Shown here in pieces: positions 3,001-52,864 of a DNA stretch of 64,000 bases. Source of the DNA: Cystobacter fuscus (GTDB taxonomy: Bacteria; Myxococcota; Myxococcia; Myxococcales; Myxococcaceae); NCBI RefSeq assembly GCF_002305875.1, contig NZ_CP022098.1, positions 6,572,001 to 6,636,000 of the forward strand, written 5' to 3'. The notes under the pieces were generated by a model, which was given only the letters and a program-made list of their open reading frames with translations, was not told the DNA's origin and did not search any database. How positions within the stretch are numbered: the stretch's first letter is position 1; each line of letters opens with the position of its first letter. The translations under genes were made by a program, and so were the position numbers.

Positions 3001-4333
3001 TCGCCTGGAGGAAGGCCCCGCGCGTGGCGTCGTCGGGACAGGTGGTGACGAGTTCCTCGAGGGGATCGACGACGAGCAGCAGCGACAGGTCCTCGTGGCG
3101 GGCGAGGAAGGAGAGGACACATGCGGCGGCGGCGCGAGGGGTCTCGGCGAGGCTCGCGGCCGAGGGCACCGCGCGGCCGGGCTCCAGCGCGGCGAGCCAG
3201 GAGGACAACGCGTGCAGAGGCCGGGCGGAGGGGCGCAGGGAGCGGGGGATGCGCCAGGCGGGGTCATCGCCCAGTCGGGGCAGGAGGCCCGCGTGGACGG
3301 CGCTGGACTTGCCCGCGCCCGAGGGGCCGCACAACAGCAGCAGGGGCTGGACGCGCAGGTGTCCGTGCAGCGCGTCAACGAGGCGCTCGCGACCGAAGAA
3401 GAGGTGGCGATGGGTGGAGGCGAAGGGTCTCAGGCCCAGGTAGGGATTGGAGTGCCGGGAGAGGGGCGCCGCCAGGGGCAGCGTGGGGAAGGCCTCGGAG
3501 AGGAGGAAGAGGAACTCGCCACTGTCATGCCCATCCAGCGGCCAGAGTGCGGGGGTTTGCGGACTGGGCGAGGGCATGAGGTCGACCAGCCGGTCGCGCA
3601 GGAAGGTGTAGAGCTCGGAGGCGGTGAGCAGGCCGTCCTGGTTGGTGTCCGCGGGCGAAGGGTGCTGGAGGGCCTGGAGCAGCGCCAGGGCGAAGGGGGA
3701 GTGCCGTCCGTCGCCCCGGGCCTCCTGGGCGGGTTTGGCCAGGAGCCGGTCGGAGGCCAATTCATCGTGGGCGGTGGAGGCGAGGAGCTGGAAGGAGCGG
3801 CGGGAGGAGAAGTGGCGAAAGCGCTCGAGGTAGAGGGGCGCGCAGGAGGCGGGGGCGCGCAGGTCGCGCGAGGGCACGTGGGGGAAGGCGCCGGCGAAGC
3901 AGCAGTCGAGGAGGAGCAGCAGGTGGCGGCAGGGCAGCTCCCGCAGCGCATCGCGCAGCGCGTCCATGCGCCAGTAGGTGGAGGGCTCGTCACGCCGGGC
4001 ATCGACGGGCAGGAGGTAGCCGGAGAGCCGGTTCGCGTCGTCGGTGTGCGCCAGCCCATGGCCGGCGAAGTAGATGAGCAGCCGGTCCGGCGGGGACGGG
4101 CGTGAAGCGAGCTGACCGGTCAGGAGCGCCGAGAGGGTGGAGAGGGTGGCCTGCTCATCGAGCAGGCGGAGCACTTCGAAGCCCTGGCGCTCCAGTGTGT
4201 CCGCGACGGCCTGGGCATCCCGGACGGCATTGCACAGCGGGGTGATGCCATGGGCGTAGGTGTTGATTCCAATGACAACGGCCAGACCACGTTCGAGGTC
4301 CAGCCGGACCGGGTCGAAGGGGAAGTCTCGCAT
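1..4333 (-). CDS. caspase - nSTAND1 NTPase - coiled coil - WD40 protein (3' end outside window)
   Basis: One uninterrupted minus-strand frame runs from ATG 4333 to the window edge (1444 codons, no stop). Residues 1-250 form a C14 caspase-like protease with YFAGHG (His92) and LDCCFAG (Cys145 in the DxCxxG position). An EF-hand-like DTNQDGLLTASEL lies near residue 220. The linker NPYLGLRPF followed by LFFGRE is typical of nSTAND1 NTPases; Walker A GPSGAGKS is at 336-343 and the acidic Walker B at Asp423. A transmembrane helix spans about 778-799. Next come some 250 residues of NAREARRQQE-like heptads, a predicted long coiled coil, then at least eight WD40 repeats (SAVFSPDGSLILTASDDKTARLW type) from about residue 1083 on. 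Family knowledge: such proteins are signal-responsive proteases of conflict or cell-death systems. Inference: membrane-anchored sensor with WD40 ligand recognition and NTPase-gated caspase activation. Divergent from the two kinases to its right. Confidence 0.9.
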   Translation of the reverse strand, partial: MRDFPFDPVRLDLERGLAVVIGINTYAHGITPLCNAVRDAQAVADTLERQGFEVLRLLDEQATLSTLSALLTGQLASRPSPPDRLLIYFAGHGLAHTDDANRLSGYLLPVDARRDEPSTYWRMDALRDALRELPCRHLLLLLDCCFAGAFPHVPSRDLRAPASCAPLYLERFRHFSSRRSFQLLASTAHDELASDRLLAKPAQEARGDGRHSPFALALLQALQHPSPADTNQDGLLTASELYTFLRDRLVDLMPSPSPQTPALWPLDGHDSGEFLFLLSEAFPTLPLAAPLSRHSNPYLGLRPFASTHRHLFFGRERLVDALHGHLRVQPLLLLCGPSGAGKSSAVHAGLLPRLGDDPAWRIPRSLRPSARPLHALSSWLAALEPGRAVPSAASLAETPRAAAACVLSFLARHEDLSLLLVVDPLEELVTTCPDDATRGAFLQAMGALLQAGHPRLRLLWLLRSDYEPHFHALLRPAGVPAEPWHGGRQPLTPMNRDELRRCIEKPAEASVLFFEPGLIERLLDDVEQMPGALPLLSVALSELFDACLTSGRDDRTLGFDDYRGIGGGIAGALQRRAELVFAGEPPPATDGQTSQLRPGPGELPAFQHTLRNVLLRMVSPEEGGLARRRVPRAELEYTSPEENRRVQRALRTLEACRLVVASDDAGPCVEPAHDALLSAWPRLHEWTLQARRELLLLRRVSHAASEWHRHGRGRDFLWADGRLEQLELAPTALHRQEAPLSLNTVSARGPEPLDFNAAESAFLRASATRRRQLLTRRSAVALSVGLALVLLTVVALFQADRAHAKAEEAEASAQEARQRKEEAEASAREAHAQQERAEHHAEEARRQEAAALSNFAEAQRQRESSERHAREALEQQRLAEANAREALNQKQLAEANAREAQRQQEAAEANARRAREQQQLAEANAREASTQRNASEANAREARRQQETAEANAREAQRQEEVATTNAREARRQQETAEANAWEAQRQKEAAEANAREVLTQKELAEANARRARTQQEAAETNAREARRQQALVQLNVRLARVRTLIDKNPTQAMLALREVFGQDAASRNDWQQSALQTSQRVISRAVLAGHEGDVNTVVLSPDGLQVLTTASDGHARLWRADGRGPPRILEGSRQPLNSAVFSPDGSLILAASDDKTALLWSTHDTIRPLHTFKGHRKPVNSAVFSPDGFLILTASDDKTARLWHVDGELVSELTGHKKEVSSAVFSPDGSLVLTASDDKTARLWNRSGEELRRFTGHQDVLVSASFSPDGSRILTVANDKTARLWSKDEKKALNVFAAHSGFVSSAAFSPDGTHIVTSSDDGTALLWRVDAEEAERIFTGHAYGVNSAVFSPDGTLILTASEDGTARLWRTDGKDEPFVLSGHLERVNSASFSPDGSLVLTASDDGTARLWPIRGAGTPFFFTEMEFNVPMALSPDGSRLLTI

Positions 4334-46889: not shown

Positions 46890-48545
46890 TCACTTCGTGA
46901 GGACTTCCCGCCAGAGCAGGCGCTCCTCGCGCCCCGGATCGTTCTCCACCTGGGACTGGAGGTTGAAGAGCATCGTGGCGCGCCGCTCCGCGTCATAGGC
47001 GGGCCACTCGGGGATGCCCGGGTGCTGGGGCGAGCCCGAGCGGGCGAAGAAGATCCACGCGGTGCTCATCTGGTCGACGAGGCCCGCGCGCTCGGGGGCG
47101 CGGCCGGTGAGGCTCGGCATCAGATCCACGTTGTCGAACACGAAGGGAATCTCCAGGGCGTGCGTGGCCTTGAGCCGGCCGTCGAGCACGGGCGTCTCCC
47201 AGTTGAACTGGTACACGTAGACCGGGGCCTGCTGGGCGGCCTTGCGCTCGGCGACGAGGAGCGAGGACGTGCGGAACATGTCGCTGCCCGCGGTCATGAG
47301 CACCTCCTTGGCCGAGTCCTCGGGCAGCCGCTTACGGTAGTGATCGAAGATCGGACCAGCCGCCTCTCCCGCGATCCGGCCCATGCCCATGCGCGCCATG
47401 CCATCGGTCATGAGCGACGTCTGTCCGTAGAGGAAGAGCGTCATCTCGTCCTTGTTGGTGCCGATGAGCAGCGGCACGCTGGCCGAGACGGCCGGAGCCT
47501 CGGGATCGAACGGGTGGCCGGGCAGGACCGTCCCATCGGCCACGGGGGAGAAGGGCGAGTTGAAGCTGAACGCGCCCCGGTTCTTCTTGAGCACCGCGGC
47601 CTGGGCGTCCAGCACCTTCTCCACGGGAAGCTCCCGCAGCGCGGCGAAGTCGCCGGGCTTGAGGCCGAGCTCGGCGAGCACCTCCCCGGCCTGCGAGGCC
47701 GCCGGCTCGGACGCCAGCGCCTTCATCATGGCTCCACTCTGGCTGATGGCGCGGTGGAACAGTCCCTGCGCCGCGGGCATGGCGAGCAGCAGCGTCACCT
47801 TCATGCCGCCGCCCGACTCGCCGAAGATCGTGACGTTGCCCGGGTCGCCGCCGAACGAGGCGATGTTGTCACGCACCCACTGCAGCGCCGCGACGATGTC
47901 GAGCATGCCCGCGTTGCCCGAGGAGGCCCATGCCTCGCCGGCCGCGGCGCCCGGGTACAGGTAGCCGAACACGCCCAGCCGGTGGTTGAGCGTGACGACC
48001 ACGACGTCGCCCCGCCGCGCGAGCGCGGTCCCGTCATACATGGCGGCCGAGCCGGAGCCCTCGACGAAGCCCCCGCCGTGCAGCCAGACCATGACCGGGC
48101 GCTTGCCACCATCCGCCACGTTGGGCGTCCAGATGTTGAGGCGCAGGCAGTCCTCGCTCATCTCCTTCGTGTCGGGAGTGACGAGCGTCGAGACGACCTC
48201 GGGGGCGACGTTGGCGCCAATGGCGCTGCGCTGGGCACAGCGCGGGCCGAACGCGAGCGCATCCCTCACGCCGCTCCACGACTCGGGCCGCGTGGGGGGC
48301 ATGAAGCGGTTCTTGCCCGAGGTGGGGCCTCCGTAGGCAAGGCCCTTGAAGACGCGAATGCCCTCGAGGGTGGCTCCGCGCACCTGACCCTGAGCCGTGT
48401 CCGCGATCACCGGCCCCTCATCCTGGGCCTCCCGGGCCTTGTTCTCGGAGCGAGGGATGTGGGCACAGCCACTCGCCAGGACACACGCGAGCAGGCCCAT
48501 CAGGGCGGATGAAGCGGACACCACGGACGGACGACCAGAACGCAT
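46890..48545 (-). CDS. lipoprotein carboxylesterase, type B
   Basis: A 551-residue protein. ATG 48545 has AGGAGGAAC upstream; the longer open frame to 49682 is a shadow of the caspase gene. The signal ends in LASGC (lipobox). Type-B carboxylesterase motifs: VFKGLAYGGPTSGKNRFMPP, SEDCLRLNIWTPN, VMVWLHGGGFVEGSG (oxyanion hole), FGGDPGNVTIFGESGGG (nucleophile Ser; the usual GESAGG carries Gly here), and the late ALEIPFVFDN (His region). The change of Ala to Gly next to Ser is conservative. It hydrolyses esters at the cell surface. Single gene with its own terminator. Confidence 0.9.
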   Translation of the reverse strand: MRSGRPSVVSASSALMGLLACVLASGCAHIPRSENKAREAQDEGPVIADTAQGQVRGATLEGIRVFKGLAYGGPTSGKNRFMPPTRPESWSGVRDALAFGPRCAQRSAIGANVAPEVVSTLVTPDTKEMSEDCLRLNIWTPNVADGGKRPVMVWLHGGGFVEGSGSAAMYDGTALARRGDVVVVTLNHRLGVFGYLYPGAAAGEAWASSGNAGMLDIVAALQWVRDNIASFGGDPGNVTIFGESGGGMKVTLLLAMPAAQGLFHRAISQSGAMMKALASEPAASQAGEVLAELGLKPGDFAALRELPVEKVLDAQAAVLKKNRGAFSFNSPFSPVADGTVLPGHPFDPEAPAVSASVPLLIGTNKDEMTLFLYGQTSLMTDGMARMGMGRIAGEAAGPIFDHYRKRLPEDSAKEVLMTAGSDMFRTSSLLVAERKAAQQAPVYVYQFNWETPVLDGRLKATHALEIPFVFDNVDLMPSLTGRAPERAGLVDQMSTAWIFFARSGSPQHPGIPEWPAYDAERRATMLFNLQSQVENDPGREERLLWREVLTK

Positions 48546-48652
48546 CGATTGTTCCTCCTGGTGGGGCGCCATAGCAGAAGGACGGGCCCGCCCCCGACGG
48601 AGAAATCGGCGCGGGAGCCAACGGGTTGTCCTCTGTTCATCGGTCGCCGGAG

Positions 48653-50872
48653 TCAGATGCGCAGGCCGAGCTGGATGCCGGGCCAGTACTGCATCGAGCC
48701 GCCATCGCCCAGCGGACGCTCGCGCGGCGTGAACCGCGTCATGTCGCGCTGCTCCCCGGGCGAGAAGGCGAAGTAGACGTTGTACGTGGGCGCGGCGAAC
48801 ACCGCGAGCCTCGGGAGGATCTGGAAGCCCACCATCGCCCGGGCCTGGGCCAGCAGGTTGTTTCCGGTGAAGGGATCCCGGAGCAGGTGCACGCTGCTGC
48901 CCACCGCGTCCACGTCCACCCAGAAGCGCGTGCCCAGGGGCATGTGCACGCCCAGCCCCACCCCCAGGCTGAAGCGCTGGAACCGATCCGTCGGATCGAA
49001 GCCCCCCACGAACGTGGAGTACACGTGCTGGCCGCCCAGCTTCACGCCCACGTTGGTGAGCAGGATGTCGCTCGACCAGAGCTCCAGGTGGAACTGCCCC
49101 TGCTTCACGAAGGAGAGCAGCCCCACGGGCGCGCCGTGCACCTCGTCGGCCACGTTGATGATCCCCACCTGCGCGCCGCGCACCACCTTGCCCACGTTGA
49201 TGATCCCCACCTGCGCGCCAGACACGTCTCCGCCCACGTTGACGACGGAGAGCTGCAACCCCGAGACGCTCCGCGCATGGTTGATGGCCCCGCTCACCTG
49301 GACGCCCGACATCGTCCCGCCCACCGTGTTCACCGCTCCCGCGACCTGGCTTCCCACCATGCTCCCGCCCGCCACGTTCATCCCCCCCGTGAGCTGCACG
49401 CCCCGCTGCTCCCGGCCCGTGACGTTGAGGAGCGAGGACACCTGCACGCCCCGCACGTCCCCACCCGCCACGTTCACTCCTCCCGTGAGCTGCACGCCCC
49501 GCTGCTCCTGGCCCGTGACGTTGAGAAGCGAGGACACCTGCACGCCCCACATGCCCCCGCCCACCACGTTCACTCCCGCCGAGACCAGTGCTCCGTCCGA
49601 CTCGTCGCCGTAGGCGTTCGACAACACCGACAGGGACAAGCCCTTGAGCGCCGTGGCGTGGTTCATGAACCCAAGCGCCCACCCGTTCTCCACCTCCGCG
49701 CCCCGCGCGAACCAGTCGTTGCTGCTCACCGCCGGCGCGATGCCGAAGTTGAAGGCCAGGCGCTTGCGGCCGGGGACGGCCTCCCTCACCTCTTCCACCG
49801 GACCTCCCCGCGACACCGTGGCCTCGCCCAGCACCGAGGAGAAGCTCGCGGTCACCAGCTGCGTGCTGCGGCCCTCGGCGAGCACGAAGGACGCCTCGGA
49901 CAGCCCACCCTCCAGCTCGCGCCGCACCCGGTAGCGTCCGGGCGCCAGACCCAGCTCCGTGGACCGCCCCGCCATCTTCATCACCTCCACGACGAGCCGC
50001 CCCGTCTCGTCGCGCACGAAGAGCCGCCCCTGCAACGAGTCGGTCAGCACCAGCGCCGCGGAGGTCGCGCGCAGGTCGGTCATCACCAGGTCTCCCGTGC
50101 CCGCCAGCTCGATGTCGTAGGCCGGGTGCTGGGCGCCGCGCTGGGTGCGCTCGGTGCGCGAGAGCGTCTCGTGGAAGGCGAACTGGTAGGCCTCGTTGAG
50201 CGTCACCCGCCCATCCCGCGTCATGTCCGCCGCGCCCCGCAGCCCGGAGATGAGGTGGTGGGTGAAGAAGGAACCCCCCAGCCGATCCGACTCCTGGGAG
50301 GCCTCGTCCTCGCTGGACGAGGTGAGGATGGCCTGCCCCGTCACCCGGCTGCCGGCATCCACGAGGAAGGCGGGCCGCGGCGAGCCCCCCTTGCGGCGCG
50401 CGAAGGCTCCCGAGGCACAGGAGTCCAGCACCGCGATGCGCACGTCCGCGGGCAGGCCCTCCAGGGCGCGGCGCAGCTCGCCATACGTCAGGCGCTCGCC
50501 CTGGAGCAGCAAGCCATCCTCGTCCGAGTGCCCCGAGTAATAGAGCAGCACCTCCACCCGGCTCACCCCCGAGGCCTTGGACGACGCGACCAGGCGCTTC
50601 ATCCGCTCGAAGCCCTCGAGCAACCCGGCCCGGCCCGTCTCCAGCAGCAACACCCGATCCGCGGGAGCCACACCGCCCAGCTCCCCCAGCACCTGGGAGA
50701 AGGACTGGGCATCGGTGGCGGCGTAGCGCAGGCGCGTCCGCTCGGGCCCTCCGTCATTGACGCCCACCAGGAGCGCCAGCCGGCGCACCCCAGTGTTGGC
50801 GGGCGCCGCATCGGCCACGGTGGAGCCCCACAGCAAGGCCGACCACAACAGGACTGGGATCATCCGGTTCAT
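48653..50872 (-). CDS. secreted caspase fused to a repeat region and beta-barrel-like domain
   Basis: A 739-residue protein with a Sec signal (MNRMIPVLLWSALLWGSTVADA). Residues 28-270: C14 caspase with RRLALLVGVND, LLYYSGHSDEDG (His115) and IAVLDSCASGAFAR (Cys152). Residues 280-390: beta-rich linker. Residues about 430-590: imperfect repeats of 18-35 residues (GVQVSSLLNVTG..RGVQLTGGVNVAGG), whose DNA shows a near-identical tandem repeat around 49380-49545. Residues 590-739: strands typical of an outer-membrane protein (FSLGVGLGVHMPLGTRFWVDVDAVG; AQARAMVGFQILPRLAVFAAP; ending LGLRI with a terminal aromatic/hydrophobic pattern). Its ATG overlaps the anti-sigma stop codon (ATGA). Inference: an envelope caspase controlled by its own ECF sigma factor. 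Confidence 0.85.
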   Translation of the reverse strand: MNRMIPVLLWSALLWGSTVADAAPANTGVRRLALLVGVNDGGPERTRLRYAATDAQSFSQVLGELGGVAPADRVLLLETGRAGLLEGFERMKRLVASSKASGVSRVEVLLYYSGHSDEDGLLLQGERLTYGELRRALEGLPADVRIAVLDSCASGAFARRKGGSPRPAFLVDAGSRVTGQAILTSSSEDEASQESDRLGGSFFTHHLISGLRGAADMTRDGRVTLNEAYQFAFHETLSRTERTQRGAQHPAYDIELAGTGDLVMTDLRATSAALVLTDSLQGRLFVRDETGRLVVEVMKMAGRSTELGLAPGRYRVRRELEGGLSEASFVLAEGRSTQLVTASFSSVLGEATVSRGGPVEEVREAVPGRKRLAFNFGIAPAVSSNDWFARGAEVENGWALGFMNHATALKGLSLSVLSNAYGDESDGALVSAGVNVVGGGMWGVQVSSLLNVTGQEQRGVQLTGGVNVAGGDVRGVQVSSLLNVTGREQRGVQLTGGMNVAGGSMVGSQVAGAVNTVGGTMSGVQVSGAINHARSVSGLQLSVVNVGGDVSGAQVGIINVGKVVRGAQVGIINVADEVHGAPVGLLSFVKQGQFHLELWSSDILLTNVGVKLGGQHVYSTFVGGFDPTDRFQRFSLGVGLGVHMPLGTRFWVDVDAVGSSVHLLRDPFTGNNLLAQARAMVGFQILPRLAVFAAPTYNVYFAFSPGEQRDMTRFTPRERPLGDGGSMQYWPGIQLGLRI

Positions 50873-51663
50873 GGGGAACTCTTTTCGAGAAGGAAGGACA
50901 CCTGCCGGAAGCGCTCGGCGAGCGGGAGGAGCGCGGTGCGCGCGCCGTCCGACGTGGCGAGCACGCGGGCGGGGGCGAGCACCTCCTCCAAGGTGAAGGG
51001 CTCGTCCGAGGTGACGAAGAAGAAGCGCTCGAAGGCGGGGGCGTCATCCAGCGCATAGGCCTGGGGCAGCGCGTGCGTCCCCGAGGGCTTGAGCGACATG
51101 GCGTCCAGGCCACCCTCGGGGGCATGGAGGGTGACGGTGCCCCGGCCGTCCACGGAGAAGATGACGCCGAAGCGGGCTCCCGCGGCCACGTAGGAGACCT
51201 GCACCACGTCCCCTTCCGAGGCCAGGGTCCCCTGGGTGAGAGCCTCCGGACCCTCGGCCGCCAGACGATGCAGGCCGAGCTGGGGCGACAGCCCCTTGGT
51301 GCGGGTCTCCTCGGCGCTCTCCTCTTCCAGCGCTCCCGGCCTCGTGCCGGGGCGCGCCACCACGAGCAGGAGCACGGCCAGCACGGGCACCAGGGCGAGC
51401 GCGGGACGCCACCGGAGCCAGGGGCTCGTCTCGAGTGAGCGAGCCTCGCTCCGCCGGGCGCGGCGTTCCACCTCGCGCGCCACGACGGAAGGGGGCCGTT
51501 GCTCCAACAGGGTGCGGTTCTCCGCCTCGAGCGCGGCCAGACGGGCCTCGCCGTCGGGCTCCTGGGCCAGGCGGGCGCGGGCCGCGGCCAATTCATCCGG
51601 AGGCAGCTCGCCCAGGGCGATGCGCTCCAACAACCAGTCCGGGGTGCGGTGGGGGGACATCAT
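50869..51663 (-). CDS. membrane anti-sigma-factor-like protein
   Basis: A 264-residue protein. The N-terminal part (RTPDWLLERIALGELPPDELAAARARLAQEPDGEARLAALEAENRTLLEQRPP) resembles an anti-sigma cytoplasmic helical domain, without the His-x3-Cys-x2-Cys zinc motif. One transmembrane helix follows (WRPALALVPVLAVLLLVVARPG), then an extracytoplasmic domain of about 150 residues (VVQVSYVAAGARFGVIFSVDGRGTVTLHAPEGG; FFFVTSDEPFTLEEVLA). The gene overlaps the ECF sigma gene upstream by 4 bases and the caspase gene downstream by 4. Its role is inferred from this arrangement: it would hold the sigma factor until an envelope signal arrives. Confidence 0.75.
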   Translation of the reverse strand: MMSPHRTPDWLLERIALGELPPDELAAARARLAQEPDGEARLAALEAENRTLLEQRPPSVVAREVERRARRSEARSLETSPWLRWRPALALVPVLAVLLLVVARPGTRPGALEEESAEETRTKGLSPQLGLHRLAAEGPEALTQGTLASEGDVVQVSYVAAGARFGVIFSVDGRGTVTLHAPEGGLDAMSLKPSGTHALPQAYALDDAPAFERFFFVTSDEPFTLEEVLAPARVLATSDGARTALLPLAERFRQVSFLLEKSSP

Positions 51664-52169
51664 GCGGTCTCCAGTTCCTCGAGCACGGTCGAGAGGGCCC
51701 GGAGGCGCTTGCGCACCCCGGAGACGGACAACCCCACCTCGCGGGCGGTCTCCTCCAGCGTCATCCCATCCACAAGGTGGAGGACGGCGATGTCCTGGCT
51801 GGAGGCGGGCACCCGGCCGAAGAGCCGGTCCAGCAGGCCCCTCGCCTCGGTGCGTGCCCCGGTGTCCTCGGCGGAGGCGATGCGCAGCACCAGCTCGTCG
51901 TGGGCATCCTCGGGGCGGCGGCGGGCGCCGCGCAGCCGGTTGAGGCACACCCGCGTGGCGATCTGATGGAGCAGGCTCGAGGGAGCGCTGTTCCTCAAGT
52001 CCTCTCGATGACGCAGGAGCTGAACGAATACGTCGTGCATGGCATCCACCGCCTTCTCTTCATCGCGCAGGAGGAAGCGGCAGCGCCGGAGCACCTGGGG
52101 GCCGTAACGGCGATAATAAGCCTCGACATCGATGGCCAACGGACTGTCGCCTCCCTCTTTCGGCGGCAT
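51660..52169 (-). CDS. ECF RNA polymerase sigma factor
   Basis: A 169-residue sigma-70 family protein. Region 2: VEAYYRRYGPQVLRRCRFLLRDEEKAVDAMHDVFVQLLRHRED. Region 4: SSQDIAVLHLVDGMTLEETAREVGLSVSGVRKRLRAL, a helix-turn-helix that binds the -35 element. Between them is a short linker and there is no region 1.1 or 3, which defines an ECF factor. It is the first gene of an operon with the anti-sigma-like and caspase genes, joined by ATGA overlaps. Likely autoregulated; an upstream stretch with an A/T run (52201-52220) lies in its promoter region. Confidence 0.9.
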   Translation of the reverse strand: MPPKEGGDSPLAIDVEAYYRRYGPQVLRRCRFLLRDEEKAVDAMHDVFVQLLRHREDLRNSAPSSLLHQIATRVCLNRLRGARRRPEDAHDELVLRIASAEDTGARTEARGLLDRLFGRVPASSQDIAVLHLVDGMTLEETAREVGLSVSGVRKRLRALSTVLEELETA

Positions 52170-52380
52170 GGAACACCGTCGCCAGAAGGATCCGTCACTC
52201 CCCTATCTTCTTTTTTTTCGTGGGGGACGCCCTCCCCCCGGCGCGAGGCCACTCCAAGCCCGGGCGGAGCGCCCGCGGGCCAAGGGCCTTCACGAAGGGG
52301 GGGACGTGACGAGGAGCCATGCCGCGGCAAGGGGCCTGGCCAGGGGCTACCCGCTTACCGGCGCGGGGGACCGGAGCCCT

Positions 52381-52677
52381 TCACTTCTCGGCGTTCGAGG
52401 ACTCGGGAGGGCACTCGCCCTGCGACGAGACCTGATCGGACGAAGCCGTCCCCGGCCCATGGCCATGCTTGAAGTGCTGGTGGTAGGGCAGCTCGTTCGC
52501 GCTCGAGCGGGCCTCCTGTTGCGAATCCGAGCAGTTGGCCGGGCTCGTCCCCCGTCCGTGCTTGAAGTGCTGGTGGTAGGGAAGCTCGTTCGCGCTCGAG
52601 CGGGCGACGGGTTGCGAATGCGAGCAACCGAGCAAGCCCAGGGTGGTGACAGCGGTACACAGGATGAGCGTCTTCAT
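52381..52677 (-). CDS. small His-rich tandem-repeat lipoprotein
   Basis: A 98-residue protein starting at ATG 52677 (GGGAGG upstream). The signal ends in LGLLGC. The mature part contains the same 16-residue motif twice: ARSSANELPYHQHFKHG at about 27-43 and again at 63-79, separated by RGTSPANCSDSQQE. The motif holds three His, so metal or haem binding is conceivable. I do not recognise the family. The DNA of the two copies is almost identical (52490-52525 and 52575-52610), suggesting recent duplication. Confidence 0.7.
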   Translation of the reverse strand: MKTLILCTAVTTLGLLGCSHSQPVARSSANELPYHQHFKHGRGTSPANCSDSQQEARSSANELPYHQHFKHGHGPGTASSDQVSSQGECPPESSNAEK

Positions 52678-52864
52678 GTGGGACCTCCCTTTTCTCAACA
52701 GCTTCTCGACCCTAAAAACGTCCTATTTTCGGATCAAACCAATCGACCGATGTGAGATGGAAGGGAGTATCCACTCCATGTAGGGGAGCTAATCCCGTGT
52801 CATTCGCGGTGTAGTTCTCCTGTTGCCGCGAGTGTCCACCGGGCCCACCCTCGGCGCGGCGCGC

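Follow-up and report, generated by a model that had tools for sequence, protein, structure and literature searches.

In the DegS-RseA-σE system, a periplasmic cut of a one-pass anti-σ factor frees an extracytoplasmic function (ECF) σ factor, the cutting enzyme DegS being a PDZ trypsin-like protease; in the CalpL-CalpT-CalpS system, which is not known to be located at the envelope, CalpS is the σ factor. Beyond CRISPR and antiphage systems, the roles of bacterial caspases are, to our knowledge, largely open. Here, we analyzed a three-gene cluster of Cystobacter fuscus that encodes an ECF σ factor, a putative membrane anti-σ factor and a predicted exported caspase, in a stretch of 64,000 nucleotides (NZ_CP022098.1, positions 6,572,001 to 6,636,000; hereafter the window), and we tentatively propose, at somewhat less than an even chance, a self-inducing envelope signaling unit in which the caspase serves as site-1 protease for the anti-σ factor encoded beside it. 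The proposal is built on what can be seen, namely the parts, the gene order, the promoter motif, the catalytic His and Cys and the Lys-Gly marks, from which we infer the place of the caspase in the outer membrane, the signal, the self-processing, the cut and the release of σ.

The pairing of a caspase with a σ factor has been in print since 2012. Four of the five metacaspases of Myxococcus xanthus lie in operons with σ70 factors, and the pairing also occurs in Anaeromyxobacter, Haliangium, Sorangium, Ralstonia and Fibrobacter (PMC3501461; for all cited papers, statements refer to the available parts of their texts). These operons of Asplund-Samuelsson et al. show the same σ-caspase pairing as the window; the available part of the paper proposes N-terminal helices as possible signal peptides and does not name an anti-σ factor, promoter, barrel or Lys-Gly sites (PMC3501461). 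We found no report of these four elements for σ-caspase operons in the open-licence literature searched, nor any of an exported caspase cutting an anti-σ factor; the promoter, the Lys-Gly marks and the lipoprotein-class tether described below were likewise not found in print. The earlier note on this DNA, made from the sequence alone, had presented an envelope form of caspase as unusual; the description understated the matter, since the family is large and a σ-metacaspase operon was already published (PMC3501461).

Other described systems share parts of this layout. In the type III-E CRISPR system, Csx29 cuts Csx30 and thereby relieves CASP-σ, so that there a caspase-like protease is set against the inhibitor of an ECF-like σ factor, but Csx29 is a cytosolic, RNA-activated TPR-CHAT protein, whereas no TPR or CHAT domain was found in the window caspase, and export and a membrane span are predicted here (PMC10028731). 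Membership in the CRISPR CASP-σ systems (TPR-CHAT with Cas7-11) was considered and rejected, as Pfam lists Peptidase_C14 only for the caspase protein. The caspase/EACC2 systems also place a caspase and an ECF σ factor in one neighborhood, with a transcriptional response proposed; their partners are EACC2, TRADD-N and TPR (DUF1822), and the available part of their description mentions neither an exported caspase nor an anti-σ factor (PMC8195603). A protease acts on an anti-σ factor in CalpL-CalpT-CalpS as well, but it is a Lon protease and the trigger is a CRISPR second messenger (PMC11417357). TonB-dependent cell-surface signaling likewise combines an outer-membrane protein, an anti-σ factor and an ECF σ factor (PMC11637429), but no plug, receptor or FecR domain is among the Pfam matches of the window proteins, and the periplasm-facing domain would here be the caspase. 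In the place of DegS, the present system would have a predicted exported caspase whose gene belongs to the operon itself.

The triad and its Lys-Gly marks

The features on which the argument rests are as follows (window coordinates; pLDDT, predicted local distance difference test score of AlphaFold models).

52172..52198, minus strand: predicted operon promoter, GTGAC-N16-GGTGTT, conserved ahead of relatives in several phyla
51660..52139, minus strand: ECF σ factor, 159 aa, probable TTG start at 52139 (longer frame from ATG 52169), from Sigma70_r2, Sigma70_r4_2 and orthologue comparison
50869..51663, minus strand: putative membrane anti-σ factor, 264 aa, with five N-terminal helices, one membrane helix and a DUF4384-type periplasmic β sandwich
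51349..51405, minus strand: predicted transmembrane helix of the anti-σ factor, about residues 87-105, from hydrophobicity (pLDDT below 50 at 95-116)
51292..51303, minus strand: juxtamembrane Arg121-Thr-Lys123-Gly124 of the anti-σ factor, candidate cleavage site, from conservation
50881..51282, minus strand: predicted periplasmic DUF4384-like β sandwich (Pfam, AlphaFold)
48653..50872, minus strand: predicted exported caspase-repeat-barrel protein, 739 aa (Pfam, AlphaFold, structure matches)
50807..50872, minus strand: likely signal peptide, residues 1-22, without lipobox, read from the sequence
50066..50785, minus strand: caspase domain, with His115 (50528-50530) and Cys152 (50417-50419) invariant in 57 sequences
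50387..50398, minus strand: Arg159-Arg-Lys161-Gly162, candidate self-processing site, spanning Cys+7 through Cys+10, where a loop of low model confidence begins

The open frames for σ factor, anti-σ factor and caspase form a triad on the minus strand, joined by 4-base ATGA overlaps at both the σ/anti-σ and the anti-σ/caspase junctions, just as the earlier note had described. Its further claims of an operon-like cluster with its own ECF σ factor and of an exported caspase were also supported. The genes overlap, both σ domains and Peptidase_C14 score over their cut-offs, and the caspase has a signal-peptide-like start. The σ factor matches Sigma70_r2 (PF04542) at 45.4 bits (cut-off 24), Sigma70_r4_2 (PF08281) at 26.1 bits (cut-off 25.7) and TIGR02937 at 56.1 bits (cut-off 42.9), and no region 3 model is among its Pfam matches; by these sequence matches, it is of the ECF type, with regions 2 and 4 and without region 3.

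The middle protein is named for a putative anti-σ-like working, on the basis of its place, topology and paralogues. Its AlphaFold model (mean pLDDT 87) has five N-terminal helices, the membrane helix and a β sandwich, for which PF14326 (DUF4384) gives 12.1 bits, below the cut-off of 27; DUF4384 is over cut-off in 2 of 10 related matches from five genomes. Curated anti-σ models stay below cut-off (NF010501, 18.7 bits against 225; NF052375, 18.3 bits against 100), the zinc anti-σ (ZAS) motif H-x3-C-x2-C of the cytoplasmic domain is absent from the window protein and present in paralogues L002-L005 (L and G numbers are our handles for loci and genomes), and the fold has no PDB match at E ≤0.001.

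Peptidase_C14 (PF00656) matches residues 30-252 of the third protein at 37.5 bits (cut-off 21.4), and its model places this part in the metacaspase fold with a His-Cys dyad: it aligns with metacaspase-4 (6w8r) at Z 18.8 and 3.2 Å over 210 residues, in a comparison that spans residues 26-269 and hardly covers the barrel. A PDB search with the single sequence gave no match, and one with a caspase profile matched metacaspase-1 and -4. Across all 57 aligned sequences, His115 and Cys152 never vary, so that catalysis seems to be kept; D54 (nearest metacaspase motif LRGC(V/I)ND) and D150 (DSC), which may form an acidic S1 pocket for Arg/Lys, are invariant as well and align with metacaspase-4. The N-terminus, MNRMIPVLLWSALLWGSTVADA before a putative cut and AP behind it, resembles a plain signal peptide without a lipobox. 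A rule-based reading of 113 family N-termini, a set that includes near copies and leaves out L006 and L113, finds a hydrophobic core in 109, AxA behind it in 87 and a lipobox in none.

A Lys-Gly pair follows closely behind the catalytic Cys in all 102 distinct DxCxSG segments, at Cys+9 in 101 of them, and Lys is at Cys+9 in 63 of 64 caspases once near copies are removed. Six further matches lack DxCxSG; counted by eye, four of these (L165, L166, L174, L179) have Lys at Cys+9 and two (L006, L178), beside which no σ or anti-σ gene was found, have Arg. The pair opens a loop that is modeled at pLDDT below 50 (residues 161-174) and that corresponds roughly to the intersubunit cleavage region of animal caspases.

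The anti-σ factors carry a similar mark, the commonest letters being T-R-L-K-G-G in the caspase loop and T-R-I-K-G-L in the anti-σ stalk. K123 and G124 are invariant in 65 anti-σ factors, and also in a set of 11 that includes paralogues of 27-33% identity. By script, Lys-Gly lies within 35 residues past the membrane helix in 82 of 87 dereplicated anti-σ factors, and this stalk holds 86 of all 112 Lys-Gly pairs in the 87 proteins. Among the five misses, L114 has its Lys-Gly 39 residues past the helix, L177 has Arg-Gly, and L171, L175 and L176 were probably miscut by the script. In a rough control that covered 30 loci from three of these genomes, a stalk Lys-Gly is missing from all 17 zf-HC2 proteins bearing both a membrane helix and a long tail. 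The script finds the mark in 32 of 36 anti-σ matches with a caspase neighbor and in 4 of 12 for which none was found. None of seven readable caspases for which no σ or anti-σ neighbor was found (three genomes) has Lys-Gly at Cys+9. DUF4384 proteins without a caspase link were rejected as a further control: all 10 matches in five genomes fall inside known anti-σ matches, and therefore no control was gained from them.

A second class of related triads, in which the caspase is a lipoprotein, bears the marks differently. Lipoprotein caspases akin to that of L206 are present in 68 of 92 genomes of the family, the four genomes of the window's genus having none. The triads read (L202, L206, L220 and L242-L291) comprise the 30 best loci, 20 picked by hand and 3 earlier ones, one place being counted twice (L206, L242). 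In all 53, Lys-Gly lies in the short tether that links the lipid to the caspase (counted by eye), and none of 52 readable caspases has it at Cys+9 (the Cys loop of L287 was unread); in the accompanying anti-σ factors, it lies within 45 residues past the predicted helix in all 51 found. As the lipoprotein class places Lys-Gly in another flexible spot, a cleavage site fits better than a structural need, so that these sequences lend partly independent support to the suggested cleavage-site role.

Gene order and promoter across relatives

Caspase relatives are present, at E 1e-10, in 93 of 96 genomes of the family, and the species genomes of GTDB 220 yielded 525 candidate stretches, of which 424 code for a relative. 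The named set consists of the best 80 of these 424, less six with cut upstream DNA. The conserved three-gene order, whose absence the earlier note had named beforehand as grounds for refutation, was found in 54 of the 74 remaining loci (σ/anti-σ/caspase); 12 have anti-σ and caspase, and 8 have the caspase alone. We reassigned L095 by hand from pair to triad, its σ match lying inside the caspase's own open frame, and counted L036 and L008, with σ in two pieces, as triads. Besides Myxococcota, the triads include metagenome-assembled genomes labeled Spirochaetota, Fermentibacterota and FCPU426. The genome of C. fuscus itself holds six caspase copies including the window's, five of them with σ and anti-σ upstream. 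A caspase tree with 75 rows, built by a quick method, rooted at the midpoint and showing long branches for L004 and L005, has the triad as its commonest and a widespread state, two losses of σ and the lone caspases in one clade; gene order changes three times, against a shuffled mean of 20.6. Two records titled Comamonas sp. KCTC 72670 (L051, L068) probably carry a wrong label; L068 falls within a Myxococcus clade, and L051 scores the same as L028 of a family genome.

The promoter motif has its sole exact match in the window at 52172-52198; with up to two mismatches, 10 matches were found against 12.85 expected. At fixed spacing near the first gene of the named triads, it is exact in 35 of 51 and within one mismatch in 44 of 51 (L093, L095 and L102 were omitted for merged frames), compared with a mean of 0.15 in shuffled sequences and 7 of 51 within one mismatch on the reverse strand. 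The latter, lying near the start, are perhaps divergent promoters. The motif also precedes 33 of 34 pairs that lack σ (11 of 12 named, 22 of 22 in a second set; the sets share some places, L045 and L016, for example, scoring alike), and because it is kept there, these pairs seem to answer to a σ factor encoded elsewhere, in trans. It is found in none of the four own-genome paralogues L002-L005, which therefore have other promoters.

Beyond the triads, the motif marks a candidate regulon. In the Myxococcus-type genomes G062 and G063, a σ factor of the kind to which the σ-less pairs may answer in trans stands within a triad whose third gene is reduced to a signal peptide and barrel part (L117, L132), caspase and repeats being gone, and the same promoter lies ahead of repeat-barrel proteins without caspase (L118, L131). 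In L116, it heads genes for ExbB, ExbD, TonB, a TonB-dependent receptor, a lipoprotein-like protein and a lone caspase-barrel protein; an exact motif 5.8-5.9 kb upstream was found for 3 of 8 named lone caspases, the sequence of those loci ending near there. Further genes behind it encode exported proteins, namely a lipoprotein-like amidohydrolase, a di-haem peroxidase, and DUF2807 and beta-lactamase-like proteins. Genome-wide matches exceed those of the reversed pattern in G015 (20/1) and G063 (16/0), slightly in G000 (6/2), G032 (5/1), G033 (5/1) and G062 (6/1), and not in G037 (4/3) or G003 (2/2); six distant genomes show no clear excess (2/0, 1/0, 1/1, 5/5, 5/3 and 2/3). We inspected 20 of these places (5 of 6 in G000, the sixth being the window, 6 of 6 in G062 and 9 of 16 in G063; G015 contributed no place). 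Three run against other frames and look like chance (L124 and L125 in G000, L121 in G062), and L135 in G063 precedes a radical-SAM gene whose product does not look exported; therefore, not every match belongs to the regulon.

The proposed mechanism and its alternatives

As site-1 protease of its anti-σ factor, the caspase would be fixed to the outer membrane through the C-terminal barrel, and its protease part would lie in the periplasm. Activation would come from a signal at the outer membrane, perhaps with self-cleavage at Lys161-Gly162, and the active enzyme would cut the stalk of the anti-σ factor behind Lys123. Breakdown would be completed by site-2 and cytoplasmic proteases, and the freed σ factor would turn on its own operon along with other genes, of which many encode exported proteins. 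The cutting of Csx30 by Csx29, which relieves CASP-σ, is a precedent for this logic (PMC10028731), and orthocaspases cleave after basic residues (PMC6426788). In its general form, which we rate as somewhat less likely than not, the proposal is that exported caspases, held in the outer membrane or anchored by lipid, are dedicated site-1 proteases of ECF anti-σ factors in several phyla, the stalk copying the self-processing site (Arg-x-Lys-Gly in the window's class, cut between Lys and Gly). If true, one recognition rule would both activate the protease and fire the gene switch, caspase-type proteases would join the site-1 proteases of envelope signaling, and bacterial caspases would gain a defined signaling job unrelated to cell death. 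The death-centered view of myxobacterial metacaspases, for which a role in developmental death has been suggested in M. xanthus (PMC3501461), would then need revision. The family in question is large, widespread and chromosomal, and a partner, a promoter and, at the residue level, a cleavage site are predicted for it.

Several observations weigh against a cleavage role. The Lys-Gly pair could be structural, since its copy in the stalk directly adjoins the first strand of the modeled sandwich (pLDDT about 80). The zf-HC2 proteins make a rough control, as many among the 17 are long proteins of other kinds. The anti-σ factors L145, L146, L160 and L167 (the 4 of 12 found by script), along with L143, keep the stalk Lys-Gly although no caspase was found beside them; the genomes of these five contain other caspases. 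Unlinked caspases can have Arg-Gly, L197 at Cys+8 and L224 and L006 at Cys+9. L165, L166, L174, L179 and L210 have the SG behind the Cys altered, yet keep Lys-Gly. In the lipoprotein class, L284 and L288 carry an extra Lys-Gly at Cys+4. Within single operons, self site and stalk agree only weakly in their P3 Arg (Fisher p 0.055 and 0.03, uncorrected for kinship and with some self sites misassigned). Finally, 8 of the 74 named family members have no anti-σ factor, and therefore the caspase must also have other work.

Such findings bear on a different reading, doubtful but a serious possibility, in which the caspase is output only, as one of several exported products that would act on proteins of the envelope or outside it, an ordinary ECF pair senses envelope stress through some other site-1 protease, and Lys-Gly is structural in both proteins. 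The lone caspases agree with it, as do the anti-σ factors that keep Lys-Gly without a caspase neighbor and the promoter's place ahead of exported-protein genes without caspase. It accounts less well for the two losses of σ in which anti-σ and caspase remained paired, and a lipoprotein class with Lys-Gly elsewhere is not easily squared with a structural role in the caspase. The earlier note had seen in the cluster a proteolysis system; as an output this is possible, but the marks point at least equally to the caspase acting on the anti-σ factor.

Signal transfer from the outer-membrane protein to the anti-σ factor by contact without any cut, as in TonB-dependent surface signaling and with the caspase domain serving for docking, strikes us as unlikely. 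The layout of outer-membrane protein, anti-σ and ECF σ speaks for it, as does the clade of lone caspases that follows ExbB-ExbD-TonB-receptor genes, the exact promoter motif lying 5.8-5.9 kb upstream in 3 of 8 named loci, but the invariance of His115 and Cys152 (57 of 57) and the lack of plug, receptor and FecR domains among the Pfam matches of the window proteins do not fit. We consider it very improbable that the exported caspase kills prey or siblings in a lysis system triggered by prey or development. Its frequency in myxobacteria (93 of 96 family genomes) would suit such a role, against which stand its occurrence in genomes labeled Spirochaetota, Fermentibacterota and FCPU426 and a cluster in which no immunity gene or toxin partner was seen; for the prey trigger that the earlier note had suggested, we saw no evidence, and the suggestion is not supported.

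The C-terminal region, the σ start and neighboring genes

Behind the caspase domain, the third protein continues with the following features.

49823..50065, minus strand: small β domain between caspase and barrel region (AlphaFold strands)
48656..49765, minus strand: repeat and barrel-like C-terminal region, residues 370-738 (AlphaFold, Foldseek)
49334..49600, minus strand: 16-residue GVQxSxxxNVxG repeats, LA_2272-like, below the cut-off of the LA_2272 model

The model (mean pLDDT 87) shows the 16-residue repeats followed by long strands to the end, and the LA_2272 surface repeat model NF047436 scores 17.4 bits, below its cut-off of 25. A barrel-like C-terminus, as the earlier note had described it, is in part borne out by these strands and by weak Foldseek matches of the whole protein, rather than of the barrel alone, to the transmembrane barrels 6x9z (E 9.3e-3), OmpW (2.9e-2), NspA (8.8e-2) and OmpA, but the E values are mostly above 0.01. 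The C-terminal residue of the family caspases is mostly I or L.

TTG 52139 is more likely than ATG 52169 to be the σ start, judging from the sequence context, because the conserved promoter stretch ends directly before that ATG and because orthologues of the closest clade mostly start about 10 codons past it, behind a conserved ribosome site.

A carboxylesterase gene (46890-48593, minus strand, 364.7 bits) starts 60 bases behind the caspase gene; we rejected it as a fourth member of the operon, since among loci L001-L115, apart from the window's own L001, it was found at this place only in L007, of the same genus (loci from the genome search extend 1.5 kb downstream). A second C14 match (69.5 bits) lies in a long open frame at about 3614-4291 of the window, minus strand, and belongs to a different caspase kind; no σ or anti-σ gene was found adjoining it, and it has no Lys-Gly at Cys+9. 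Just upstream of the triad, at 52381-52698 on the minus strand, lies a small frame that starts like a lipoprotein and contains a repeated SSANELPYHQHFKHG stretch.

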